From positions 5,952,001 through 6,016,000 of the forward strand of contig NZ_BJOR01000001.1 of NCBI RefSeq assembly GCF_006540305.1: a DNA stretch of 64,000 nt, read 5' to 3'. The notes below the pieces were generated by a model. It was given only the letters and a program-made list of their open reading frames with translations, made no database searches and was not told the origin of the DNA. Both the position numbers and the translations under genes were made by a program. Below are positions 25,675 through 38,681 of this stretch, piece by piece; the first letter of the stretch is position 1, and each line of letters begins with the position of its first letter. This DNA is from Streptomyces sp. 6-11-2 (GTDB lineage: Bacteria; Actinomycetota; Actinomycetes; Streptomycetales; Streptomycetaceae).

Positions 25675-27021
25675 ATGACCATCCCCCTGCTGCTCCTCGG
25701 AGCGGCGCTTCTGCTCATTCTCGCCAACGGCTTCTTCGTCGCGGCCGAGTTCGGCCTGGTCACGGTCGAGCGCCCGGACGCCGAGAAGGCCGCCGAGGAG
25801 GGCGACAGACGGGCCCTCAGGGTCGTCGAGTCCCTCAAGGAGCTGTCCTTCCAGCTCTCCGGCACCCAGCTCGGCATCACCATCACCTCCCTGGTCGTCG
25901 GCATGCTCGCCGAACCGGCGCTGGCCGGGCTGCTGCGCGGCCCGTTCGCGGCGGCCGGTGTCCCCGGCGGAGCCGTCTCCGGGGTCGCCGTCGTCGTCGG
26001 CATGCTGCTGGCCTCGGCGGTCCAGATGGTGATCGGCGAGCTCGTACCCAAGAACTGGGCGGTCTCCCGGCCCCTTCAGGTGGCGCGTTTCGTGGCCGGC
26101 CCGCAGCATCTCTTCTCGCGCCTGTTCCACCCGGTGATCGCGGCGCTCAACACGGTCGCCAACCGGCTGGTGCGCGCCCTGGGCGTCGAACCCACGGAGG
26201 AGCTGGCCTCCGCCCGCACCCCCGGCGAGCTGGTCTCGCTGGCCCGCCACTCGGCCCGGGCCGGCGCCCTCGAACAGGACACCGCGGACCTCTTCGTGCG
26301 CACCCTGTCCCTGGGTGACCTGACCGCAGAGCACGTCATGACCCCGCGGGTCAAGGTCAGCGCGCTGCAGTCCTCGGCGACCGCCGAGGACGTGGTGAAC
26401 CTCACCCGTGCCACCGGCCTGTCCCGCTTCCCCGTGTACCACGAGAAGATCGACGAGGTCGTCGGCATGGTCCACCTCAAGGACGCCCTCGCGGTGCCGT
26501 CCGACGAGTGGCTGCGCACCCCGGTGGGCCGTATCGCCCGCCCGGCGCTGCTGGTCCCCGAGACCCTGCCGGTGCAGCCGCTGCTCGCCCAACTGCGCAA
26601 CGAGCAGCCGATCGCGGTCGTCGTCGACGAGTACGGCGGCACCGCGGGCGTCGTCACCCTGGAGGACATCGTCGAGGAACTCGTCGGCGAGGTCCGCGAC
26701 GAGCACGACGCCACGGACGTGCCGGAACTCGCGCCGGCCCCGCCCGAGGACGGGAGCCCCGCCTGGGACGTCGACGGCGGCTGCCGGGTCGACCTGCTCC
26801 GGCGGATCGGCCTGGACGCGCCCGAGGGCCCGTACGAGACCGTCGCCGGCCTGGTCGCCGACCTGCTCGGCCGCATCCCGGCCCCCGGCGACAGCGCCGA
26901 GCTGCCGGGCTGGCGGCTGGCCGTGCGCCAGGTCGAGCACTACCGCGCGGAGCGGGTGCGGCTGGTCCGCACCGCCACCGCGGCGGACCCGGTCCCGGCC
27001 GTGGCGGAGGCCGCCCGATGA
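25675..27021 (+). CDS. CNNM/CorC-type hemolysin-family protein 1
   Basis: 448 residues. The N-terminal DUF21/CNNM transmembrane domain (about 1-150; LLILANGFFVAAEFGLVTVE, GELVPKNWA) is followed by a CBS pair (about 215-345; HVMTPRVKVSAL, VVDEYGGTAGVVTLEDIVEELVGE) and a CorC/HlyC C-terminal domain (WDVDGGCRVDLLRRIGL). Members mediate Mg2+/Na+ transport or efflux; the name hemolysin is historical. Its stop overlaps the start of a paralogue, and the pair probably forms a heteromeric membrane protein. Confidence 0.9.
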   Translation: MTIPLLLLGAALLLILANGFFVAAEFGLVTVERPDAEKAAEEGDRRALRVVESLKELSFQLSGTQLGITITSLVVGMLAEPALAGLLRGPFAAAGVPGGAVSGVAVVVGMLLASAVQMVIGELVPKNWAVSRPLQVARFVAGPQHLFSRLFHPVIAALNTVANRLVRALGVEPTEELASARTPGELVSLARHSARAGALEQDTADLFVRTLSLGDLTAEHVMTPRVKVSALQSSATAEDVVNLTRATGLSRFPVYHEKIDEVVGMVHLKDALAVPSDEWLRTPVGRIARPALLVPETLPVQPLLAQLRNEQPIAVVVDEYGGTAGVVTLEDIVEELVGEVRDEHDATDVPELAPAPPEDGSPAWDVDGGCRVDLLRRIGLDAPEGPYETVAGLVADLLGRIPAPGDSAELPGWRLAVRQVEHYRAERVRLVRTATAADPVPAVAEAAR

Positions 27022-28088
27022 GCGTGATCCAACTGCTTTTCGCCGCGCTGCTGGTCCTCGCCAACGGCTTCTTCGTCGGTGCCGAGTTCGCCCTCGTCTC
27101 CGTCCGCCGCAGCCAGATCGAACCGCTCGGCACGGCCCGGGCCCGCCAGGTGCTGCACGGCCTGGAGCGGCTGCCGCAGATGATGGCCGCCGCCCAGTTC
27201 GGCATCACCGTCTGCTCGCTGACCCTGGGCGCCGTCGCCGAGCCGACGGTGGCCGGACTGCTGGAGCCGGTGTTCGCATGGCTCCACATGCCCAGCGGCA
27301 TGGTCCACCCGCTCGGCTACGTCATCGCGCTCGCGGCCGTGGTCTTCTTCCACCTCGTGATCGGCGAGATGGTGCCGAAGAACCTCGCGATGGCCGCGCC
27401 GGAGAAGGCCGCGCTGTGGCTCGGTCCCGGTCTGGTCGCCTTCGCCCGGCTGTGCCGGCCGATCACGGTGGCGCTCGGCGCCTGCGCCAAGGGTGTCCTG
27501 CGGCTCTTCCGCGTCGAGCCCAAGGACGAGGTCGAGGCCGCCTTCACCAGCGTGCAGCTGGGGCGGCTGGTGGAGGACTCCCGTCAGGCGGGGCTGCTGG
27601 ACCCCGAGGAGCAGGAGCGTCTGGAGGACGCGCTGGAGCTGGGCTCACGCCCGGTGACCGACGTCCTGCTCCGGCCCGAGGCGCTGGTCACGGTCGGCCC
27701 GTCGGTCACTTCGGCCGAGATCGTCGCGCTCACCGCCCGGACGGGCTACTCGCGCTTCCCGGTCGCCGCGGGCAACGGTGCCTTCCTGGGGTATCTGCAC
27801 GTCAAGGACGTGCTCGACCTGGAGGACCTCGACGGGGCGGTGCCACAGCGGGCCTGGCGGCCGATGACCACACTGCGGGCCGATCTGCCGCTCGACGACG
27901 CCCTGACGGTGATGCGCCGGGCCGCCACGCATCTGGCCCAGGTGGCCGACACCACCGGCCGGGTGCTGGGCCTGGTCGCCTTGGAGGACGTGCTGGAGCT
28001 CCTGGTCGGTGAGGTCACAGACCCGGCCCACCGCACCCCGACCCTCACGTCCCCCCGCCCCGGCCCCCGGCAGGCCCTCACGGCCTGA
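27018..28088 (+). CDS. CNNM/CorC-type hemolysin-family protein 2
   Basis: 356 residues. It has the same CNNM membrane domain (LLVLANGFFVGAEFALVSVRR, GEMVPKNLAMAAPEK) and a CBS pair (VTDVLLRPEALVTV, GYLHVKDVLDLEDL, LGLVALEDVLELLVGEVTD). Unlike its upstream partner it lacks the CorC C-terminal domain and ends soon after the CBS region. ATG27018 overlaps the previous stop by 4 bases; a longer frame starting inside the upstream gene is a shadow. A strong terminator follows immediately. Confidence 0.9.
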   Translation: MSVIQLLFAALLVLANGFFVGAEFALVSVRRSQIEPLGTARARQVLHGLERLPQMMAAAQFGITVCSLTLGAVAEPTVAGLLEPVFAWLHMPSGMVHPLGYVIALAAVVFFHLVIGEMVPKNLAMAAPEKAALWLGPGLVAFARLCRPITVALGACAKGVLRLFRVEPKDEVEAAFTSVQLGRLVEDSRQAGLLDPEEQERLEDALELGSRPVTDVLLRPEALVTVGPSVTSAEIVALTARTGYSRFPVAAGNGAFLGYLHVKDVLDLEDLDGAVPQRAWRPMTTLRADLPLDDALTVMRRAATHLAQVADTTGRVLGLVALEDVLELLVGEVTDPAHRTPTLTSPRPGPRQALTA

Positions 28089-28094
28089 CCCACC

Positions 28095-28138
28095 ACGGCC
28101 ACCGGCCCACCCGCTTCACCGGGTGGGCCGGTGGCCGT
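28095..28138. terminator. strong hairpin terminator of the CBS-protein operon
   Basis: A perfect 18-bp inverted repeat (28095-28112 with 28121-28138) closes an 8-base loop GCTTCACC and is followed by TTTC. It begins 6 bases after the second CBS-protein stop and marks the boundary to the accessory-looking block. Confidence 0.88.
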
Positions 28139-28324
28139 TTCACCGAGCGTCGTCGCCCCGGCCGGGTCGGGTTTCCGTCTTCGGAGGAGCCCTTCGCCGG
28201 TTGCGCCGGGGCGTCCCGCAGGCTGACCTCCGCTGCCCACTGGGGGCCGCCGCCGCTCAGCGCCGTCGTGGTGCCACGGCGCGGACCGGTGCGCCGGGCC
28301 TCGCTCACAGGCCGGACCAGCTCG

Positions 28325-29107
28325 TCAGTCGGGGGCCGGACCGGGCGCCGGGGTCGGGCCGGGCCCCGTACCCGGGGCCGGGTCCAGGGGCCGGGACTGG
28401 TGCCAGAGGTGTTCGTACTGGTGGAGCCAGTAGCGGTGCCACGTCTCGTGGGCGCGGCGGGTGAGGCGCAGGTGCATTCGGCTGGTGACGGCCTCGTTGC
28501 GGATGCCGTGCAGTTCCAGGACCAGCCAGCCGTCCCGCTCGCCCGGGTCGACGGCCAGCAGGCTGAAGCCGGGGCTGTAGGGGAGCACCCGGTACTCGAA
28601 GGTGCCGGTGCGGGGCCAGGAGTCCATGGTGCGGAGCTGCCGGAGCACCGTGTCGAGCGACGGCCGCAGCCGCTGCAGCGGAGCGTCCAGGCTGTCGTCC
28701 AGCTGATGTTCGGCGACCGCGACGGCGTCCGTGGCCGCCGGGTCCAGCACCACCACCCGCACCGACCCCTCCGGCCGGCTCAGCACATGGTGCCGCAGCG
28801 CCTGGGACACCTGCGGTGTCAGGAAGTTGACCGCACTCGGCGCGAACAGCCAGACCGTACGGGCCGTTTCCAGCCGCTTGGCGAGCGGCGGCGAGGTCTC
28901 CTGGAGCGCGACCCGGTCCCCCAGCAACTCGTCCCCGGACGGGCCCCGGGTCTCCAGCGCCGACCGGTACACCAGCAGGGCCACCGCCGCGAGCAGCGCC
29001 GCCCACCGCAGGTCCACCGGCACGATGTCACCGATGACCGACAGCACGGCGAACACGGCGGCCAGCGCCGCGGCCACGTAGACCTCGACATTGCGCAGAT
29101 GCCTCAT
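28325..29107 (-). CDS. two-TM membrane protein with possible phospholipase D-like domain
   Basis: About 260 residues from the ATG complementary to 29105-29107. Two transmembrane helices (VYVAAALAAVFAVLSVIG and LRWAALLAAVALLVY) precede a soluble domain. Its pattern VWLFAPSAVNFLTPQVSQALRHHV and SVRVVVLDPAATDAVAVAE resembles the first half of DUF5919/PLD-like folds, but no clear HKD motif is present. The C-terminus is a Pro/Gly/Thr-rich tail. An in-frame ATG at 29209 would add 34 residues. It is divergent from the radical SAM gene, 216 bases away. No function is known; a membrane-anchored sensor or effector is conceivable. Confidence 0.6.
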   Translation of the reverse strand: MRHLRNVEVYVAAALAAVFAVLSVIGDIVPVDLRWAALLAAVALLVYRSALETRGPSGDELLGDRVALQETSPPLAKRLETARTVWLFAPSAVNFLTPQVSQALRHHVLSRPEGSVRVVVLDPAATDAVAVAEHQLDDSLDAPLQRLRPSLDTVLRQLRTMDSWPRTGTFEYRVLPYSPGFSLLAVDPGERDGWLVLELHGIRNEAVTSRMHLRLTRRAHETWHRYWLHQYEHLWHQSRPLDPAPGTGPGPTPAPGPAPD

Positions 29108-29323
29108 CCGGGCCGATGTTTCCGTATGGCGGGATCCACCGCAACTGCCCCGTGCGCGGCACTTGTTGAGGCGCGCGCACCGCTGCCCCCGTCCTCGCTG
29201 GTGTGGCATGGTTCACTACACGGCGCGCCCGGCGCACGAGGCCCGGCCGGCGCGGCGGCTCTCCGCACCCCCGTACTTCCGTACTGTCCGGGAACACTCG
29301 CGCGACCCGCCAGGAGGCCGGCC

Positions 29324-30664
29324 ATGCTGATCCGGATCGTCTCAGCACCCTGTGTGAGCGCCTATCTCAACCTGGACCACCACTTCGTGGAGCTCGGCGA
29401 GGTCGCCGCCCATCTGCGCGACCGCGCCGGACACGAGGTCCGCGTCGTCGACGGCGTCCTGCCCGAGGTCACCTGGGACACGGTCGTCGAGGAGGCACTG
29501 CACGCCACCGGACTCGTCGTCCTGCACGTCACCCTGGACAACACCCTGGAGACGGCCCGTACCATCCGGCTGCTGCGCCAGCTGTCCCCCGGCACCCGGA
29601 TCGCCCTGTACGGGCGGGGCGCCTACCACCTGCGCCGGCTCTTCCAGCGCACCGACGCCGACTGGATCGTCCTGGAGCAGGACTGGGAGCCGGCACTCGC
29701 CGAGATCGCCGCCCAGGTGGCCGCCGGCGCCGAGCCGGGACCCGTGCCCGGCACCCTGACCCGGACGGCGGGCACCTGGACCCGCGGCCCGGCCGGCGTC
29801 CGCCTGGCCGGCGACTGGGAGCTGCCCGCACTGGACCTGCTGCCCGTCGCCGGGTACGCGCGGCTGCCCGCGGACGAGTCGTACCCGGGCCGCGAACCCG
29901 AACGGGAGCTCGCGGTCGGCGTGTCACGCGGCTGCGACAGCTACTGCGGCTACTGCCCGATCCCCGACGTGATGGGCCGCCACGAGTACTTCCGCACGGG
30001 CCTGGACACCCTGGCCGGCTATCTGCGCGCGGCCCGCGAGAGCCACGGATACACCGCGGTCTCACTGTTCGGGGCCAACTTCACCGCCCACCGCGACTAC
30101 GTCCACGACTTCTGCGCCCGCGTCGGCACCCCGCGCACCGGGGTCACCTGGAAGTGCGTCACCTCGCACGCCGAACTCGACCCGCCGCTGCTGGGCGAGA
30201 TGGCCGCGGCCGGCTGCACCCGCGTGGCCGTCGGCGTGGAGTCGCTGCTCCCGGACGGCCGGAACCGCTTCTCCGGGCGCGTCGGCGCCGAGCGGCTGGC
30301 CGATCTGGGCGCCTGGTGCGCGGCCGAGGGCGTCCTGCTGATCTGCTTCGTCATGGTGGGGCTGCCCGGCCAGACCCGCCACGAGGTCGCCGTGACCCTG
30401 GACACCGTGCGCGCGGCCGGCGCCGTACCCCGCCCGATGACGTACGTCGACTATCGCCGGCTCGCCGCGGCCGAGGACTTCGCCGATGTGTTCTGGGCCA
30501 ACCGCAAGACGGTGAGCGAGCCGTTCGGCCGCGGCATCCTCTCCATGAGGGACACGGCCCTGGCCGTGCACTCCTGGGAACACTGGCTGGACACGGTGGG
30601 CCCGGCCGCCGGCCGGACGAGCGGCGAGCGCCCCGCCGCGGCGCCCCGCCGGCCGGCTCAGTGA
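29324..30664 (+). CDS. B12-binding-type radical SAM protein
   Basis: 446 residues. The first ~130 residues look like a cobalamin-binding Rossmann domain (VVLHVTLDNTLETARTIRLLRQLSPGTRIALYGRGAY). The radical SAM core follows with the cluster motif CxxxCxxC at Cys204, Cys208 and Cys211 (SRGCDSYCGYCPIP) and later VGVESL and FVMVGLPGQT strands. AGGAGG precedes ATG29324. It overlaps by 4 bases with an isoprenyl-synthase-like gene, so the pair probably makes or modifies an isoprenoid or other lipid; methylation or C-C chemistry are both possible. No known pathway was recognised. Confidence 0.85.
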   Translation: MLIRIVSAPCVSAYLNLDHHFVELGEVAAHLRDRAGHEVRVVDGVLPEVTWDTVVEEALHATGLVVLHVTLDNTLETARTIRLLRQLSPGTRIALYGRGAYHLRRLFQRTDADWIVLEQDWEPALAEIAAQVAAGAEPGPVPGTLTRTAGTWTRGPAGVRLAGDWELPALDLLPVAGYARLPADESYPGREPERELAVGVSRGCDSYCGYCPIPDVMGRHEYFRTGLDTLAGYLRAARESHGYTAVSLFGANFTAHRDYVHDFCARVGTPRTGVTWKCVTSHAELDPPLLGEMAAAGCTRVAVGVESLLPDGRNRFSGRVGAERLADLGAWCAAEGVLLICFVMVGLPGQTRHEVAVTLDTVRAAGAVPRPMTYVDYRRLAAAEDFADVFWANRKTVSEPFGRGILSMRDTALAVHSWEHWLDTVGPAAGRTSGERPAAAPRRPAQ

Positions 30665-31776
30665 ACGTCCCCCCGGCCCCGGACCTGGCCCCCACCGGGC
30701 CCGAGGGGGCGCCCTGGCCGGTCACCACCTGGTACGGCGCGGTGGAGACCGAGTTCACCGCGGTCTTCGTCCAGGACCTGTGGAGCACCCCGCTGCGCAC
30801 CGCCGCCGCGCACTGGCTGGGCCCGGCCGCCGTGCACTACGTCGAGGCGATGCCCGGCCGCAAGTACCGCGCCGTACTGCCCTGGCTGACCCTCGGCCGC
30901 CCCAACCGGCTGGTCCACCGCTGTCTGGTGCCGGAGCTGATGTTCGCGGTTTTCTACTGCCTCGACGACCTGCTCGACCGCAAACGCGTGCGCTACGGCA
31001 CTGCCACGGCCTACGCGGCCCACGGACGTGGCGAGTTGACCCGCTCCCTGGAGGCCGCCCGGCGGGGCGTGCCGCGCTCGGGACCGCTCGCCGGGCTGCC
31101 CGGCGCGCTGTGGGAGGAGTGCGTGACCGGGATGGCCGACGGCCAGTCGCAGCGGCACGCGCTGACCACCGACGCGTTCTCCTGGGAGCGTTACACCGAG
31201 GCGGCCCGGCGGCGCACCGCCTTCGTCGGGCGCGCCTGGGCCGACGTCCTGACCGCCGGTTGCGACCCGCGCGCGGCGGCCTTCGTCACCACCGCCTACC
31301 CCTGGTGCGCCGAGGCCGGCCAGCTGCGCAACGACCTGCGCAACACCACCGCCAGGGAGAGCCGCGACGGCGGACGGCGCCACTCCGACCTCGGCGACGG
31401 CAGGGTGACCGCGGTCTCGGGACTGCTGTGGCGGCGCGCCGACCCCGCCGACCGGCAGTGGCTCGCCCGCCGGGTGTGGGGCCGCGGCCCGCTCGGCGCC
31501 GAGGCACTCGTCCGGGTGGACCGGATGCTGGAGCACTACGCCGTGCGCTCCCATGTCGCCATGGCCACAGGCCGGTTGACCCGTCGGATCCGGGCGGCCC
31601 TCGATGCGATCGAGGACCCGCGGGTGCGTGCGGTGTGGGACGCTTGGGTCACCCGGCAACTGGAGGTCGGGGTCCGGCACGACTACGGCCACGGCCGGGG
31701 CAACGCCTCCGTCTCCCGCTTCCGCTCCGCCGTCGCGGAGCTGCGCGGCCCCGCCGGGCGGACGGACACCGAGTGA
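30661..31776 (+). CDS. isoprenyl diphosphate synthase-like protein with degenerate second Asp motif
   Basis: 371 residues, all-helical. The first aspartate-rich motif DDLLD (102-106, in FYCLDDLLDRKRVRYGTATAYAAHG) matches trans-prenyl synthases, and SDLGDGRVTAVSGLL matches their conserved helix after the second motif. The second motif itself, normally DDxxD, reads QLRNDLRN, and the GGKRxR lysine/arginine patch is replaced by MPGRKYRAVLPWL. The enzyme may therefore use a different substrate or be a binding protein. GTG30661 overlaps the radical SAM stop (GTGA), indicating coupling. A distant terpene-cyclase-like role is an alternative. Confidence 0.7.
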   Translation: MNVPPAPDLAPTGPEGAPWPVTTWYGAVETEFTAVFVQDLWSTPLRTAAAHWLGPAAVHYVEAMPGRKYRAVLPWLTLGRPNRLVHRCLVPELMFAVFYCLDDLLDRKRVRYGTATAYAAHGRGELTRSLEAARRGVPRSGPLAGLPGALWEECVTGMADGQSQRHALTTDAFSWERYTEAARRRTAFVGRAWADVLTAGCDPRAAAFVTTAYPWCAEAGQLRNDLRNTTARESRDGGRRHSDLGDGRVTAVSGLLWRRADPADRQWLARRVWGRGPLGAEALVRVDRMLEHYAVRSHVAMATGRLTRRIRAALDAIEDPRVRAVWDAWVTRQLEVGVRHDYGHGRGNASVSRFRSAVAELRGPAGRTDTE

Positions 31777-31828
31777 TCGACGGACGTACGACCGACGCAC
31801 GACGAACGAACGGGGACGGTGGACGCGG

Positions 31829-32629
31829 ATGACAGCAGCCGACGGAGTGTTCGGACACCTCGCCGCACGGGCCGCGGAGGGCCGCCTGGCCGTCCTCGTG
31901 GGCGCCGGACTGTCCATGGGCGCCGGATACCCCGGCTGGGGCCGGCTCTTCGCCCCGCTCGGGCAGGCCCTGGGCCCGGCGGCCGGCGGCGCCCCGCTGC
32001 CCGACGACCTGCCCGCGCTGGCCGAGGCGTACGAGGCGGAGTACGGCCGCAACAGCCTCATCTCCCATCTGCGCCGCGAACTGCGCCGCTCCCTCGCCTG
32101 TACCGAGGCGCACCGGGCACTGGCCGCCACCGGCCTCAAGGAGATCCTCACCACCAACTACGACGTGCTGCTCGAGGAGGCCCTGCAGGATGTCGCCGGT
32201 CCGGTCGACGTCGTCGTACGGGACTCCGACCTCGCCTACACCGCCCCCGCCCGCCCCCGGCTGGTCAAGATGTGCGGCGATGTGCTCAACCCGGAGACGC
32301 TGACCGTCACCCGCCGGGACTTCGCGGTGTACGGCGCGGTCAAACCCAGGCTCGCCGAGTACGTGCGCGGCCTGCTGGAGACTCATGAACTGCTGGTGCT
32401 CGGCGCCGGGCCGTCCGACCCGGAGTTCAACATGCTCTGGGACCTGGCGACCGCCGGGCTCGGTGAGCACAAACCCGTCGGCTGGGTGCTGACCGCCGAC
32501 GTCTCGCCCCTGCAGCAGCGGGTCGCGCTCACCCGCGGGCTGCGCACCCTGCCGCTCGACGTGACGGAAGACGGCGTCACCCGGGCCCTGGCCCGCTGGC
32601 TGGACGGACTGAGCGCCGCCCATGCCTGA
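31829..32629 (+). CDS. SIR2-family protein
   Basis: 266 residues, a single SIR2-like NAD-binding domain. GAGLSMGAGYPGW (about 26-37) is the GAGxS nucleotide loop, and ILTTNYD (Asn110, Asp112) is the second NAD motif. The position that normally holds the catalytic histidine (KLHG) reads VKMCGDV, with Cys149. The rest (TVTRRDFAVY, LLVLGAGPSDPEFN) matches the SIR2_2 class used in bacterial NAD-depleting defence proteins. It lies 52 bases after the isoprenyl-synthase-like gene and overlaps the next gene by 8 bases, so it probably acts with that large NTPase protein. Confidence 0.82.
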   Translation: MTAADGVFGHLAARAAEGRLAVLVGAGLSMGAGYPGWGRLFAPLGQALGPAAGGAPLPDDLPALAEAYEAEYGRNSLISHLRRELRRSLACTEAHRALAATGLKEILTTNYDVLLEEALQDVAGPVDVVVRDSDLAYTAPARPRLVKMCGDVLNPETLTVTRRDFAVYGAVKPRLAEYVRGLLETHELLVLGAGPSDPEFNMLWDLATAGLGEHKPVGWVLTADVSPLQQRVALTRGLRTLPLDVTEDGVTRALARWLDGLSAAHA

Positions 32630-35600
32630 CACCCAGCCGGAGTTCGACCCGCACCTCGTCGTCGAACTGGCCCGGGCCTGGGAGACCGGCTCCCTGGCCG
32701 TGGTCCTGGGCCCCGAGTTCGACCGCGAGACGGATGACACGGTCCGCACGGCGCTGCTCGCCGAACTCGGCCGCGCCGACGAGTCCTCGGCCCCTCCGCT
32801 GGGCCGGCTCACCGAGGAGTACCTGGCCCGCTTCGGCCGCGCCGCCCTGATCACCCTGCTGCGCAGCGCAGGACGCCCGGCGGTGCCCGGCGAGACGCCC
32901 GCACGGCCCCCTTCGCCCTCCGAAGCGCTCCATGAATGGCTCGCGTCCCGCCCACCGGCCTGCCTCCTGGTCACCTCGCTGTATCCGACGGCCGAACACG
33001 CCTACCGCCGCTTCCGGCGCCCCTTCCACGTCGTCAAGACCGAGACGGCGATCGCCTTCTGGGACACCGCACAGCCCCAGATCGTCCATCTCTTCGGCTG
33101 TCTGGACGCCCCGCAGGACGCCCTGCTCGGCGAACGGGAGCGGCGGGCCGCGCGCTTTCTGCGCCCCCTGCTCACCGCCCGCCTGGCCGACCTGCCCGCC
33201 TCGCACACCCTGGTCCTCGTCGGCTTCGCCCCGTACGACCCGGTCCTCGAAGAACTCCTGGCACCCGCCCTGCACTCGCTCGGCGCCTACTGGCGCGGCG
33301 CCGTCGTGGTGCTGCCCGAGGCCGACGAGGGCGTGCGCGCCGCCTACGGGCGGCGCCAGATCAAGGTCGTCACCACCGACGGCGCCCCCACCGCCGCCTA
33401 CACCCGGGACCTGCTCGACCTGGTCCGGGGCACCGCCGAACGGCAGGGCACCGAGGCGCTGCGCGGAGAGTCACCGGCCATAAGGGAGTGCGAGGAGCAG
33501 CTCGGCGTCCTCGGCTGGAGCGCACAGCACTCGGTACGGCTGAGCGACCGCGCCGTGGAGTCGGTCTTCGGCCACCCCACCGAACCCGGGCCGCTCACCG
33601 CGCACATCGTGGAGGGCGAGCTGTCGGGCGGTGATGTGCGCCGGCTCGCCGAACGCGTCGGCGGACACGGCCGGGGCATGGCCGTCACCGAGACCAGGAT
33701 CTCCAACACCGCCCGCCGCCTCGCCGCCACCGACGGCCGGCTCGAACTGCACACACGCCAGTCCCTGCTGGAGCGCGTACTCGGCGTCGAACCGTATCTG
33801 CGCTGGATCCTCGACGAGTACGAGAACGGAACCCAGCGCGGCGCCTATGTGGACCTCCAGTGCCGGCGCCCGCTGTCCGACGCGGTGGCCCCGGTGCGCG
33901 GCGACGCCTACTGGCTCGACGACTACGTCGACTCCTGGCTGCGCGAGCGCTCGCACAGTCAGCTGACCCTGCTCGGCGAACCCGGCAGCGGCAAGTCCTG
34001 GTACTGCCGGCACCTCGCTTACGCCCTGGCCCGCCGCTGCCTGGACGACCCCGACCGCGGACGTGTCCCCGTGCTCGCCCTGCTGTCGGAGATGCCGGCC
34101 ACCGGCACGCTGGAGGACTTCCTGATCGCGCAGATGCGCGGCAAGGGCGCCGAGCTCCTCGGCGGCACACAGTCCTTCCGGTACGCCAACGACACCGGCC
34201 GGCTGGTCGTCATCCTCGACGGGCTCGACGAACTGCGCTGGCAGGTCACTCCCGAGCGTGCCCGGCGCACGCTGGCCGAACTCGCCGATCTGGTGGGCCC
34301 CCGGAGCAAGATCCTGCTGGCGAGCAGGCCCGGCTACTTCGAACAGGACCGCTCCGCCCTGCGCCCCGGTGATGCGCCGGGCGCGCCGATGTCCGGGAGC
34401 GCGGCCGAGGACACCGCCGGCGTCCCCGGACTCCGGCTGTCGGACGGGTCCACCTTCGAGGTGATCCGGCTCGCCGACCTCGGCTACGAGCAGCGCGTCC
34501 AGGCCCTGGTGCGTCGGCTCGGCACCCGGTCGGAACCGGTGCGGCGGCTGATCGACGCCAGCAGCGCCCTGACCGACCTGGCCCGGCTGCCCGGTCTGCT
34601 CGACCTGATGTCCGTGGTACTGGCCGTGCCCGGCCGCGAGGCCCCCACGACCGCCTCGGAGCTGTTCGAGGAGTACGTCACCGTCCTGCTCGGCGGCGCC
34701 GAACGCGTCGCCGTCGACGGCGCGGCGGTCCGCGCCGACACCGACCGGCTCGCGGCGCTCGCGGGCCGGATGCGCAGCCGGGCCACCCACGCCCTGCCGC
34801 TGGCCGAGGCCCGCGGCATCCTCGGCGTGCCCGAACCCGCCTCCGCCGGGACGGCCGGGCCGCTGAGCACCGACCCCCGCTGGGAGGCCTTCCTGCGGGT
34901 GGCCGCCGACGGCACCGTGCGCTTCCGGCTCAAGACGATGCGCGAGTTCCTCACCGCGCGCAGCCTGTGCACGGCGCTGCGGGCCGGGGACCGGGCCCCG
35001 CTGGACGAACGGCTGCTGCTGCCCGAACCGGTCGGCTACCTGGCCGAGCAACTGGCCTCCGCCGGACTGTCGCCGCTGGACTGGCTGCCCCCGGGCGGGT
35101 CGGCGCCGGCCGTCCGCGAGCCCGCCGCCGGACCGGTGGGCTCCCTGGTCGGCGGCCGGCTGCCCGCCAACTGCCTCTCCCTGGCCAACCGCATGGGCGT
35201 CTCCCTGGCCGGCCGCTCGCTGCGCGGACTCGATCTGCGCGGTGCCGACCTCCAGGGCGCCCGCCTCGCCGGCGCCGATCTGCGCAACTGCGATCTGCGC
35301 TCGGTGCTGCTCCAGGGTGCCGTGGTGACCGGAGCCGACCTGCGGGGCGCCTGGCTGCACGGAGCGATGCTGCACGAGACCCAGGTGGTCTCCGCGGTGG
35401 GCATGCTGCCCGACGACGGCGAGGTCGTGGCCGGCACCGCCGAGGGCCTGGTGCAGGTGCTGGACCGGGCCCGCCTGGACACCCTGGAGAGCATGCGCTG
35501 CCCGGGGGTCTTCCGCAACATGGCCCTGATGTCCCACGGCCGCTATGTGGTGGCGGCCGCCCTCGACGGCGGCGTGTATCTGGCGGACCGGGAGAACGGG

Positions 35601-36359
35601 CAGGCCTTCCTGGAGATCGCCCACCACGGCGCCCCCACCACCTCCGCCGTCGCGGTCGGGGACACCCGGCTCGCCTCGGGCGGCACCGACGGTTCCGTAC
35701 GGCTGTGGACCCTCGACGGCGACGAGGTGTGGCAGACGCGGGTCTCCTCCGGCTACGTGCGCTCCCTCGCCCTGGACCCGGACGCCGGCCTGATGTTCGC
35801 CGGTTCCTCCGCCGGAACCGTGGCCGCCCTGGACGCCGTCACCGGCCGGCCCGTCAGGCAGTGGGTCGCGCACCCGGACGCCGGGGTGTACTGCCTGTGC
35901 GCGCTGCCGGGCACGGGCCTGGTGGCCAGCGGCAGCGACGACCGCAGGATCCGGCTCTTCGTCCAGGACGACGGCAGCCATGCCGCCGACCTCGCCGTAC
36001 TGGGGGACACGGTGCTCGGCCTGGTGTACGACTCGGGCACCGGGGTGCTCTACTGCGGCTGCCGGGACGGCACGCTCAGCTCCTGGGACCTGAGGCACCG
36101 GGAGCGCAACTGGTCGGTGGGCGGGGGACACGCCGTGCTCTCCGTGGCGCTGCACGCCAAGTCCGGGGTGGTGGCGACGGCCGGCGCGGACGGCTGGGTA
36201 CGGCTGTTCGACAGCGGTTCGGGGGAGCCCCTGGGCGAGCGGCTGGTCGGCCGCCGCTCCGAACCGGACTGGCACGGCGTGGACCTGCGGGGCACCACGG
36301 GCTGGCACCGGGAGTGGCTGCGGTTCATGGGCGAACGCGGCGCGATCCTCGACGACTGA
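32622..36359 (+). CDS. giant SIR2-like / STAND-type NTPase / pentapeptide / beta-propeller protein
   Basis: 1245 residues. (1) About 1-280: a SIR2-like fold with eroded motifs (VVLGPEFD for GAGxS, VTSLYPT for TTNYD, VHLFGCL for KLHG). (2) About 280-440: an unassigned linker. (3) About 445-700: a NACHT-like NTPase with Walker A GEPGSGKSW (~452-460) and Walker B LVVILDGLDEL (~528-538). (4) About 865-915: pentapeptide repeats (LRGLDLRGADLQGARLAGAD). (5) About 920-1225: a WD40/PQQ-like beta-propeller (SGGTDGSVRLWTLDGD, SGSDDRRIRLF, TAGADGWVRLFDSG). No signal peptide or membrane helix is seen. The design fits a signal-transduction ATPase: propeller sensor, NTPase switch, N-terminal effector or adaptor. 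Its 8-base overlap with an intact-looking SIR2 gene suggests a two-part conflict or cell-suicide module. Confidence 0.85.
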   Translation: MPDTQPEFDPHLVVELARAWETGSLAVVLGPEFDRETDDTVRTALLAELGRADESSAPPLGRLTEEYLARFGRAALITLLRSAGRPAVPGETPARPPSPSEALHEWLASRPPACLLVTSLYPTAEHAYRRFRRPFHVVKTETAIAFWDTAQPQIVHLFGCLDAPQDALLGERERRAARFLRPLLTARLADLPASHTLVLVGFAPYDPVLEELLAPALHSLGAYWRGAVVVLPEADEGVRAAYGRRQIKVVTTDGAPTAAYTRDLLDLVRGTAERQGTEALRGESPAIRECEEQLGVLGWSAQHSVRLSDRAVESVFGHPTEPGPLTAHIVEGELSGGDVRRLAERVGGHGRGMAVTETRISNTARRLAATDGRLELHTRQSLLERVLGVEPYLRWILDEYENGTQRGAYVDLQCRRPLSDAVAPVRGDAYWLDDYVDSWLRERSHSQLTLLGEPGSGKSWYCRHLAYALARRCLDDPDRGRVPVLALLSEMPATGTLEDFLIAQMRGKGAELLGGTQSFRYANDTGRLVVILDGLDELRWQVTPERARRTLAELADLVGPRSKILLASRPGYFEQDRSALRPGDAPGAPMSGSAAEDTAGVPGLRLSDGSTFEVIRLADLGYEQRVQALVRRLGTRSEPVRRLIDASSALTDLARLPGLLDLMSVVLAVPGREAPTTASELFEEYVTVLLGGAERVAVDGAAVRADTDRLAALAGRMRSRATHALPLAEARGILGVPEPASAGTAGPLSTDPRWEAFLRVAADGTVRFRLKTMREFLTARSLCTALRAGDRAPLDERLLLPEPVGYLAEQLASAGLSPLDWLPPGGSAPAVREPAAGPVGSLVGGRLPANCLSLANRMGVSLAGRSLRGLDLRGADLQGARLAGADLRNCDLRSVLLQGAVVTGADLRGAWLHGAMLHETQVVSAVGMLPDDGEVVAGTAEGLVQVLDRARLDTLESMRCPGVFRNMALMSHGRYVVAAALDGGVYLADRENGQAFLEIAHHGAPTTSAVAVGDTRLASGGTDGSVRLWTLDGDEVWQTRVSSGYVRSLALDPDAGLMFAGSSAGTVAALDAVTGRPVRQWVAHPDAGVYCLCALPGTGLVASGSDDRRIRLFVQDDGSHAADLAVLGDTVLGLVYDSGTGVLYCGCRDGTLSSWDLRHRERNWSVGGGHAVLSVALHAKSGVVATAGADGWVRLFDSGSGEPLGERLVGRRSEPDWHGVDLRGTTGWHREWLRFMGERGAILDD

Positions 36360-36384
36360 CCGCCCTCGGTGGCGGGGGCCGTGC

Positions 36385-38250
36385 TCACACCCCCGACGGA
36401 TCCTGGGGCCCCCGTCCCGACAGCACCTCCCCGTACGCCTGCATCAGGTCCGGCAGCCGCAGGGTCGACAAGTCGTCCCGGGTCGGCGTTCCCGGGTACG
36501 TGGACAACCTCAGGTCCCGGTAGGCGCAGCTCTTCTCGTAGAGGGTCCGCAGGAACCGGCCGTTGCCGAGTTCGTCGATCCAGCCCTGGTCGACCACGTG
36601 CCCGGCGATCGAGTGCAGCTCGTCCCGGGCCTCGTCGTCCCACAGGTCACCGTTCTCCGTGGCGAGCACCTTGCCGATCTCGGTGAGTTCCGTCGGCCGG
36701 TACGACGGGAAGTCCACCCGGGTGGTGAAGCGCGACGACAGCCCGGGGTTCGCGGCGAGCAGGCGGTCCATGCCCTCGGGGTAGCCGGCGAGGATCACCA
36801 CCAGGTGGTCGCGGTTGTCCTCGGCCCGCTTGAGCAGCACCTGGAGGGCCTCGTCGCCGTACGCGTCGCCCTTGCCGTAACCCGAGTTCGACAGGGAGTA
36901 GGCCTCGTCGACGAAGAGCACACCGCCGATCGCGGAGTCGATGAGCTCGTTGGCCTTGACGGCGGTCTGCCCCAGATATTCGCCGACCAGGTCGGCCCGC
37001 TGCGCCTCCACCAGATGGTCGCCGCCGAGCAGGCCGAGCGCGTAGAAGACACGGCCGAGGATGCGGGCGACGGTGGTCTTGCCGGTGCCCGAGGGGCCGG
37101 AGAAGACGAAGTGGCGTTTGGGCGGCTGCACGGGCAGCCCCTGCCCTGCCCGCAGCCGCGCCATGTTCAACTGCGCCGACAGGGCCTTGACCTGCCGCTT
37201 CACCGGTTCGAGCCCCACCATGCGCTCGAGTTCGGAGAGCGCTTCCTCCAGTAGCGCCGGGTCGGTGGGCCCGGTGGGCAGCGGCGCGTCGGCGGCCGGG
37301 GTGCGCCGACGCACCGCCGGATCGGTCACCGACGGCAGTGGACCGGTCACCGACAGGTCGGTCCCGGACAGCTTCAGGTCCCGGCCCTCGGCGCCGAACA
37401 GCGGGTCCAGCAGATCCGGGCCGTCCATGAGGTCCTGCCCGAGGCCGGTGAGGGTGATCGCGGCGAGGCCGGCCGTGTCCTCGTACCCGTCGCCCTCGGC
37501 GATCGCCGTGAGCCGCGCCGAGGTGTCCATGAAGGCCGGATCGACCCGGTGCACCGCCCGGTACAGGGGCAGTGCCGCCGCGCTGCGGCCGGTGCCCTCG
37601 TGCGCCCGCGCCAGCCAGTACCTGAGTTCCTTGCGCTGCGGCTGCTCGCTGCGGCAGCGCATCAGCGCGGCCGACAGCAGCGGCTCGGCCTGCCCGTACA
37701 TCTCCAGGCGCACCCGGGCCATGCCGCCGAACAGTCCGGCCTCGATGCCGAGCAGCGGATCGTCGAGCAGCGGGTCGGTGTGCCGGACGAGCTGTTCCCA
37801 GTCCTTGACGAGGTAGGCGCGGCAGGCGTGCAGAAAGCGGACCTGGGGGTCGGCGTCCACCGGCGGCAGCCCGGCCAGCGCGCGGTCCAGCTCGGGGACA
37901 TGGCGGCCGTCCAGCCAGTGCGAGACGTGCGCGAGCAGCAGGTCGCGCGGGCTCTCCAGTACGGGCTGCACCCACCAGCCCAGCCAGTACCAGGAGTTGA
38001 GGGTGCGGCGGTGCCGGGCGCGCTGTTCGTTGAAGCGGTCGCGGTGCCGGAACATCCTGAGCAGCGCGGTCGTCGTGTCGACGCGCAGCGCGTGCAGACC
38101 GAGCCAGCCGTCGGCCATCCCCGGGTCGAGCCGCACCGCGGCCCGGAACTCCTCCTCCGCCTGCGGATAGGCGCCCATCGTGTAGGCGTCCACGCCTCGC
38201 AGCCACGCGAGGTCGGCCGGGGCCTTCGGGCCCTGCGTGCCGAAGTCCAT
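36385..38250 (-). CDS. CbxX/EccA-type AAA ATPase with N-terminal TPR region
   Basis: 621 residues. The N-terminal ~330 are helical, TPR-like (GAYPQAEEEFRAAVRLDPGMADGW, RSAAALPLYRAVHRVDP). The C-terminal ~270 form an AAA+ module with Walker A FSGPSGTGKTT, Walker B GGVLFVDEAYSL, a pore-like loop near DLVGEYLGQTAVKA and the arginine-finger region LSSRFTTRVDFPSYRP. Domain order and length match type VII secretion ATPase EccA, but no other ESX gene is in this window. ATG38250 follows GGGGGA. It converges on the STAND gene, with 25 bases between stops. A related CbxX-family gene is, from memory, present at this locus in S. coelicolor, so it may be core. Confidence 0.85.
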   Translation of the reverse strand: MDFGTQGPKAPADLAWLRGVDAYTMGAYPQAEEEFRAAVRLDPGMADGWLGLHALRVDTTTALLRMFRHRDRFNEQRARHRRTLNSWYWLGWWVQPVLESPRDLLLAHVSHWLDGRHVPELDRALAGLPPVDADPQVRFLHACRAYLVKDWEQLVRHTDPLLDDPLLGIEAGLFGGMARVRLEMYGQAEPLLSAALMRCRSEQPQRKELRYWLARAHEGTGRSAAALPLYRAVHRVDPAFMDTSARLTAIAEGDGYEDTAGLAAITLTGLGQDLMDGPDLLDPLFGAEGRDLKLSGTDLSVTGPLPSVTDPAVRRRTPAADAPLPTGPTDPALLEEALSELERMVGLEPVKRQVKALSAQLNMARLRAGQGLPVQPPKRHFVFSGPSGTGKTTVARILGRVFYALGLLGGDHLVEAQRADLVGEYLGQTAVKANELIDSAIGGVLFVDEAYSLSNSGYGKGDAYGDEALQVLLKRAEDNRDHLVVILAGYPEGMDRLLAANPGLSSRFTTRVDFPSYRPTELTEIGKVLATENGDLWDDEARDELHSIAGHVVDQGWIDELGNGRFLRTLYEKSCAYRDLRLSTYPGTPTRDDLSTLRLPDLMQAYGEVLSGRGPQDPSGV

Positions 38251-38681
38251 CACGTCCCCCACAAACCGTGCCCCCGAAGGTTCGCCGCCAGGCATCCACC
38301 TGACGGCTTCCTGTGGTCGAACCGCTCTGCCGCGGACCGGAGTTGCAGGTGCGCGAAGCAGTCGTTCAAAGGTCGCACCGAGGGCATCGTACCTGCGGGG
38401 CCGCCGCCCGCCGAAGGGTGCCGCACAGGCTGTTCGGTGAGGCGGCGGAGTAAGGGACGCACCCGATGTGGTGACCGAGGGTGAGCGAATGACGTCGCGC
38501 AGCGTCCGGAAAACGCGAAGAGGGCAGAACGAAGCCCCCGATCACGGGGGAACAACCGGGGGCTTCGTGACTGCGGGCGGTACGCGATGACCGCTCATTC
38601 AGAACGTAAGACCTGTACGACCCCCGGGTCAAGCGGAGTTGGGGGACTCGGGAAAGTTGCTTGGCAAGGGTCTTCACAAGT
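38251..38681. other. 431-bp gene-free region with a stem-loop
   Basis: No convincing coding frame. A 12+12-bp inverted repeat (ACGAAGCCCCCG at 38529-38540, CGGGGGCTTCGT at 38557-38568) has a 16-base loop, and an alternative inner CCCCCG-ATCA-CGGGGG hairpin could compete with it. It could terminate the kinase-like gene read from the right on the minus strand, or be part of a small RNA. The remainder is the promoter side of the AAA ATPase gene. Confidence 0.5.

Follow-up and report, generated by a model that had tools for sequence, protein, structure and literature searches.

Among the described systems that come closest to the locus reported here are Thoeris, with its SIR2 protein ThsA, and AVAST type 5, whose protein joins a SIR2 domain to a STAND ATPase (Avs5, or SIR2-STAND). 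The histidine of the SIR2 HG motif was regarded as absolutely conserved before an NG variant was found in Avs5: in PaAvs5-1 an asparagine stands at this position, asparagine or histidine is required there for protection, and nicotinamide adenine dinucleotide (NAD) is lowered upon infection (available excerpt of PMC12931631). In ThsA the substitution H152A abolishes NADase activity and also disturbs oligomerization (available excerpt of PMC7272460). Radical S-adenosylmethionine (SAM) chemistry, for its part, appears in the FtsH ternary conflict systems of multicellular bacteria, in which a radical SAM domain is an effector proposed to modify a peptide (available excerpt of PMC7159879, eLife 2020). 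Here we describe a five-gene island of Streptomyces sp. 6-11-2 (genome of 8.7 Mb in three contigs) that brings together a radical SAM enzyme, an enzyme of the isoprenyl-diphosphate-synthase fold, a stand-alone SIR2 protein with a cysteine in place of the catalytic histidine (Cys-SIR2), a large SIR2-NACHT protein, and a membrane protein. The window, by which we mean the whole stretch of 64,000 nucleotides that was analyzed, corresponds to G000:C1:5952001-6016000. Our reading, to which we give a probability of roughly 0.45, is that the island is one co-inherited conflict system, probably directed against phages, which derives from a SIR2-NACHT sensor/effector that lay beside a membrane protein; the Cys-SIR2 would dock onto the large protein, at its dead SIR2 domain, and a ligand would be made by the enzyme pair. 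The features, in window coordinates, are as follows.

28089 to 36384, no strand: the whole insertion, between a CNNM/CBS gene (27018 to 28088) and an EccA/CbxX-like AAA gene (36385 to 38262).
About 28095 to 28138, plus strand: strong hairpin terminator with a perfect 19-bp stem (-46.6 kcal/mol, z -6.8), 3' of the CNNM gene at the island's left edge.
28325 to 29107, minus strand: gene divergent from the operon, for a membrane protein that has two hydrophobic stretches and weakly matches HAB; translation may instead start upstream, at 29209.
29324 to 30664, plus strand: radical SAM enzyme of the AprD4/OxsB type, with CxxxCxxC at residues 204-211 and a Pfam Radical_SAM match.
30661 to 31776, plus strand: isoprenyl-diphosphate-synthase-fold enzyme, with DDLLD kept at 102-106 and NDLRN as the second motif at 224-228.
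31829 to 32629, plus strand: stand-alone SIR2 protein (P0002), in which GAGLS and TTNYD are intact and Cys149 replaces the catalytic His.
32622 to 36359, plus strand: large SIR2/NACHT/pentapeptide/WD40 protein (P0003) of 1245 aa, assigned by Pfam and motifs.

An earlier note, made from the sequence alone, had described four genes on one strand at 29324 to 36359 with two overlaps and a gap, and this arrangement is as claimed: the frames of the radical SAM and isoprenyl-synthase genes share 4 bases (GTGA), a 52-base gap precedes the SIR2 gene, and the frames of the SIR2 and large-protein genes share 8 bases. The starts of the genes match those of their homologues, and a frame artefact was thereby ruled out. 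Each of the family labels is backed by Pfam, with Radical_SAM at E=7.5e-17, polyprenyl_synt at E=4.4e-7 (29.8 bits against a cut-off of 27), and SIR2_2 at E=2.8e-20 in the small SIR2 protein; the large protein, among the best 25 of its 41 matches, gave SIR2_2 at E=6e-6 (26.8 bits against a cut-off of 24.5), NACHT at 4.8e-12, Pentapeptide at 2.4e-12, and WD40 at 2.2e-16. What had been called a four-gene module is, however, a five-gene island, given the membrane-protein gene on the opposite strand.

The stand-alone SIR2 protein, P0002 (266 aa), aligns to ThsA (6lhx) over 188 residues (E=1.5e-17), with which it shares the SIR2 domain, intact GAGLS and TTNYD motifs, and the catalytic asparagine; it differs in having no SLOG domain and in carrying Cys149 at the position of ThsA His152. 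Cysteine occupied this position in all four rows of the family alignment (three clusters and the window copy). Among 17 aligned relatives (12 from genome contigs and five from the genus search), all 16 that cover the site have histidine, as does a SIR2-NACHT protein of another Streptomyces genome, G283, to which we return below. Judged from these alignments, the cysteine is a fixed change at that SIR2 position. The label of an NAD-consuming type of SIR2 is unsupported in that form: the small protein has Cys for the catalytic His, and the SIR2 domain of the large protein has lost GAG, TTNxD, and HG alike. As to other SIR2 defense proteins, P0002 scored only 40.1 bits with the DSR2 model, against an NCBIfam cut-off of 1400. 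The Pfam listings for the five genes of the island and for nine flanking genes contain no TIR domain, as in ThsB, the rest of the genome being unsearched for TIR.

Because Avs5 works with a non-His NG motif, Cys149 is no proof of a dead enzyme (available excerpt of PMC12931631). The Cys-SIR2 could thus be an active NAD-cleaving effector, in which case CG would join HG and the Avs5 NG as a third functional form of the motif, and the enzyme pair could serve self-protection or tuning. We hold this alternative to be possible, if doubtful. The retention and conservation of GAGLS and TTNYD speak for it, as does the PaAvs5 asparagine, which supports both defense and loss of NAD (same excerpt). On the other side stand the loss of NADase activity in ThsA H152A, subject to the caveat about oligomerization (excerpt of PMC7272460), and the finding that replacement of Avs5 Asn153 with Ala or Gln abolished protection (excerpt of PMC12931631); moreover, a literature search for a case with cysteine found none.

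In the large protein, P0003, a degenerate SIR2 domain (residues ~1-270) is followed by a NACHT domain with intact Walker A (452) and Walker B (529) motifs, pentapeptide repeats (~855-920), and a WD40 propeller (~920-1200). The three SIR2 motifs are all lost, GAGLS being replaced by GPEFD, TTNYD by VTSLY, and HG by FG. The SIR2-NACHT protein of G283, in contrast, is intact (GAGLS, TTNFD, and KIHGD); it is 25% identical to P0003 over 745 columns. Like Avs5, P0003 carries a SIR2 domain on a STAND ATPase, here intact, and Avs5 also tolerates a non-His HG motif (excerpt of PMC12931631). The island departs from Avs5 in the motif-less state of its fused SIR2 domain, in its separate second SIR2 protein, and in the metabolic enzymes attached to it. 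The PADLOC Avs models gave no match to the large protein at E<=0.01.

The other two genes of the operon probably encode enzymes that make an unusual small molecule. The radical SAM motif reads CDSYCGYC from residue 204, and the core fold is supported by Pfam and by a structural model, in which the N-terminal domain, devoid of a DxHxxG motif, aligns in fold to cobalamin enzymes; fold rankings were taken from a second look at the list returned by Foldseek. The protein scored 69.5 bits with the AprD4 family model, against a cut-off of 500, and the gene neighbors of AprD4 (a radical SAM diol dehydratase), OxsB, and TsrM are unlike those found here. The second enzyme is predicted to adopt the all-helical isoprenoid synthase fold (best of five models kept, 82.9 mean pLDDT, the others at 61-76), and its first aspartate motif is present. 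Its second motif, NDLRN, has asparagine for the first aspartate in all five family members, and the lysine of TGK is lost, two respects in which the protein differs from bacterial and archaeal polyprenyl and geranylgeranyl diphosphate synthases; all three in-frame comparison proteins have both DD and TGK, the remaining four of the seven having been set aside because they were read in a wrong frame. Only these two changes count, since the three used for comparison themselves end the motif in N or G.

How tightly do these genes belong together? The four genes of the operon are rare. Among 150 genomes of the genus, the window's own included in each count, the isoprenyl synthase matched 24 at E<=1e-3 (all others at 36% identity or less, none of them close), the small SIR2 protein matched six (best other, 38% identity), and residues 1-840 of the large protein matched five at 1e-10 (the other match with the best E-value has 34% identity and spans residues 328-663). 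In a larger set of 392 genomes of the genus, 28 had a match to the radical SAM profile at 1e-10, with 718 bits for the window's own gene, 198-235 bits for four distant relatives, and 81 bits or less for the rest; at the class level, the only match at 1e-30 among 374 genomes was the window's own genome. We also searched a set of 5.8 billion proteins, where scoring was limited, for each query, to the ~8,000 candidates with the most words in common with it. Among the candidates scored there were four clusters for the isoprenyl synthase, 12 for the radical SAM enzyme (eight of them full-length, at 43-99% identity), and only three for the small SIR2 protein.

The sources of some of these clusters coincide. 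Three of them (P0006, isoprenyl synthase; P0010, radical SAM; P0022, SIR2) come from a source designated lgn, are 59-74% identical to the window genes, and each have two members on two contigs, the longest of 23,884 bp. For two more (P0011, radical SAM, 59%; P0023, SIR2, 69-70%) the source is Nocardia sp. R16R-3T, in each case with a contig of 192,208 bp. The identity of source and contig size suggests that the genes lie on one contig in lgn and in Nocardia. The radical SAM enzyme and the Cys-SIR2 are the pair that occurs together in most sources: every one of the three SIR2 clusters, one being the window's own group, is matched by a radical SAM cluster that shares its source, which counts in favor of a single system, and two of the three (the window's own group and lgn) have an isoprenyl-synthase partner too. 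The earlier note had left it to such recurrence whether its parts were co-inherited or merely adjacent; the radical SAM and SIR2 genes recur in Nocardia, and the isoprenyl synthase joins them in lgn, if the placement is as source and contig size suggest. Because the genes are linked in other sources, chance adjacency was rejected. In a further Streptomyces genome (sp. NPDC041068, contig of 973 kb), the isoprenyl synthase has a relative at 51% identity, P0007, for which the hit list contained no radical SAM partner.

Several observations weigh against a single system. The same-contig placement in lgn and Nocardia was deduced from source and contig size. Only three of the eight full-length radical SAM clusters have a SIR2 partner, none being shown for the other five, and no isoprenyl synthase of the island family from Nocardia was among the candidates scored. 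Distant radical SAM relatives (28-33% identity) sit in ordinary biosynthetic clusters, and among the genes called around them no homologue of SIR2, NACHT, or the isoprenyl synthase was detected. A SIR2-type neighbor of the membrane protein was seen at no fewer than two of eight other Streptomyces loci read (at least 2/8), and a Nonomuraea homologue of the membrane protein had no SIR2 gene among the genes called nearby. The enzyme pair might form a small operon for biosynthesis, with the SIR2, NACHT, and membrane proteins as a separate defense system, the two having been inherited together as cargo of the island. This explanation, which we consider somewhat unlikely, accords with the biosynthetic surroundings of the distant radical SAM relatives, with the absence of the enzyme pair from the vicinity of the intact SIR2-NACHT gene and membrane-protein homologue of G283, and with the apparent lack of a radical SAM partner for P0007. 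It is opposed by the same-source radical SAM partners of all three Cys-SIR2 clusters in at least two genera, by the confinement of the Cys-SIR2 to just those clusters among the candidates scored, and by the frame overlaps of 4 and 8 bases within the operon.

The distant biosynthetic clusters (L057-L060 in G391, G111, G193, and G181, and L083 on the Mesorhizobium plasmid NZ_CP050298.1) contain an aminotransferase, 2OG-Fe oxygenases, and a tyrosine-phosphatase-like protein, to which the Streptomyces members add EPSP-synthase-like and small-kinase-like genes (below the Pfam cut-off).

The membrane protein is the component whose tight membership in the module is weakened. Its HAB match (E=3.5e-4, 21.3 bits) lies under the Pfam cut-off of 27, no HAB match was found in its homologues from G283 and G327, and the homologues begin near the inner methionine. 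Homologues were found in nine of 392 Streptomyces genomes, the window's own included; at 1e-40, with 61 relatives searched, none of the other 60 had the protein. Only one of the eight other Streptomyces genomes with a homologue, G314, is also among the 28 with a match to the radical SAM profile (61 bits, partial, on the assumption that the same 392 genomes were searched). The closest Streptomyces homologue found (48%), that of G283, lies 424 bp from the intact SIR2-NACHT gene. The SIR2-type neighbors at the eight loci were assigned by Pfam for G283 and by alignment, by eye only, for G327; such neighbor counts are lower bounds, because the simple gene caller missed the SIR2-NACHT gene of G283 and some membrane-protein genes. 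These loci provide a lead, short of proof, that a membrane protein and a SIR2-NACHT protein formed the ancestral unit, from which the version in the window would descend, its fused SIR2 domain now dead and a Cys-SIR2 encoded separately.

Two of the loci have features of their own. The SIR2-NACHT gene and membrane-protein homologue of G283 (L137:6316-10410) were missed by a caller based on codon bias, which may mean foreign composition. In G327 (L138:9955-12725) the membrane-protein homologue overlaps a gene for a 637-aa protein that is SIR2-like by eye and has no Pfam match, and a CHAT gene lies upstream.

The site of the island identifies it as an insertion between core genes, as the earlier note had suspected. 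Orthologues of the CNNM gene were found in 22 of 40 other genomes searched (77-86% identity), and in all 12 of these 22 relatives that were fetched the CNNM and EccA/CbxX-like genes abut as a convergent pair 32-381 bp apart, on which basis the insertion was placed at 28089 to 36384. In one relative (G003, L122:3109-3489), a short tandem repeat with a unit of ~13 bases, by eye, occupies this gap. The terminator after which the block was said to begin exists as a strong hairpin, but it follows the CNNM/CBS gene, and 1.2 kb separate it from the start of the four-gene run. A consensus scan of 28000 to 36500 found neither promoter nor terminator, the hairpin having escaped it because it has no T-run of the kind that the scan requires. 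GC content per kb is 0.73-0.77 inside the island and 0.68-0.76 in the flanks, with no sharp step. The Pfam matches listed for the five genes of the island include no integrase or transposase, and no repeat in the lists examined (for direct repeats the best 20 of at least 60 families, for inverted repeats the best 25 of 225 pairs) links the island's ends as in a repeat-flanked transposon. Carriage by phage or plasmid is likewise unsupported, searches having given no or only distant matches: P0001 and P0002 had no match in phages and P0004 none in plasmids, P0001 had distant plasmid matches in 14 records (best 30%, Mesorhizobium), and P0002 had distant ones in plasmids too (28.5% in the top row, among 20 of 63 records listed). 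With profiles, no relative of the SIR2 protein or the isoprenyl synthase was found in viral contigs and none of the radical SAM enzyme in genome or viral contigs (two short patterns each); the SIR2 profile found 12 distant loci in genome contigs. The picture is of a rare island of ~8 kb in a soil bacterium, part of whose gene set recurs in another genus, so that it looks like a real unit.

Large sensor ATPases serve regulation in Streptomyces, and the NACHT and SIR2 proteins could control the metabolite of the enzyme pair as a matter of secondary metabolism in which phage defense is uninvolved. The absence of an integrase or transposase from the matches just mentioned fits such a role, whereas the likeness of the SIR2-NACHT architecture to conflict systems and the sporadic, insertion-like distribution do not; we think it quite unlikely.

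Under the conflict-system reading, the WD40/pentapeptide end of the NACHT protein, which seems suited to sensing, would detect an invader, whereupon the protein would oligomerize. Its dead SIR2 domain would then offer a platform to which the Cys-SIR2 docks, and the Cys-SIR2 may thereupon turn active, either on NAD by way of the altered HG motif or as the receptor or user of a special ligand. The radical SAM and isoprenyl-synthase-fold enzymes would make that ligand, perhaps a modified small metabolite that is isoprenoid-like or bears a diphosphate, and this metabolite would license or supply the SIR2 step. Viperins offer a likeness in concept, being radical SAM enzymes tied to defense through a small molecule. 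In the open-licence literature we found no account that combines radical SAM and isoprenoid-synthase chemistry with SIR2 or NACHT proteins. The FtsH ternary systems, like the island as read here, link a radical SAM enzyme to a conflict system; their ATPases, however, are vWA-MoxR/FtsH, and the terms SIR2 and prenyl are absent from the available excerpt of PMC7159879, while that of PMC10853773 mentions radical SAM only in discussing DndC. The boldest version of the idea, a new class of immunity in which the small molecule of the enzyme pair is the ligand or substrate of a Cys-for-His SIR2, which an NLR-like NACHT sensor recruits through its own dead SIR2 domain, strikes us as unlikely.

If the proposal is true, the island would represent an immune pathway linked to a metabolite, would provide a natural cysteine version of the SIR2 HG motif, and would contain an NLR-like sensor whose effector domain became a docking module. 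With five genes only, every step would be open to direct test.

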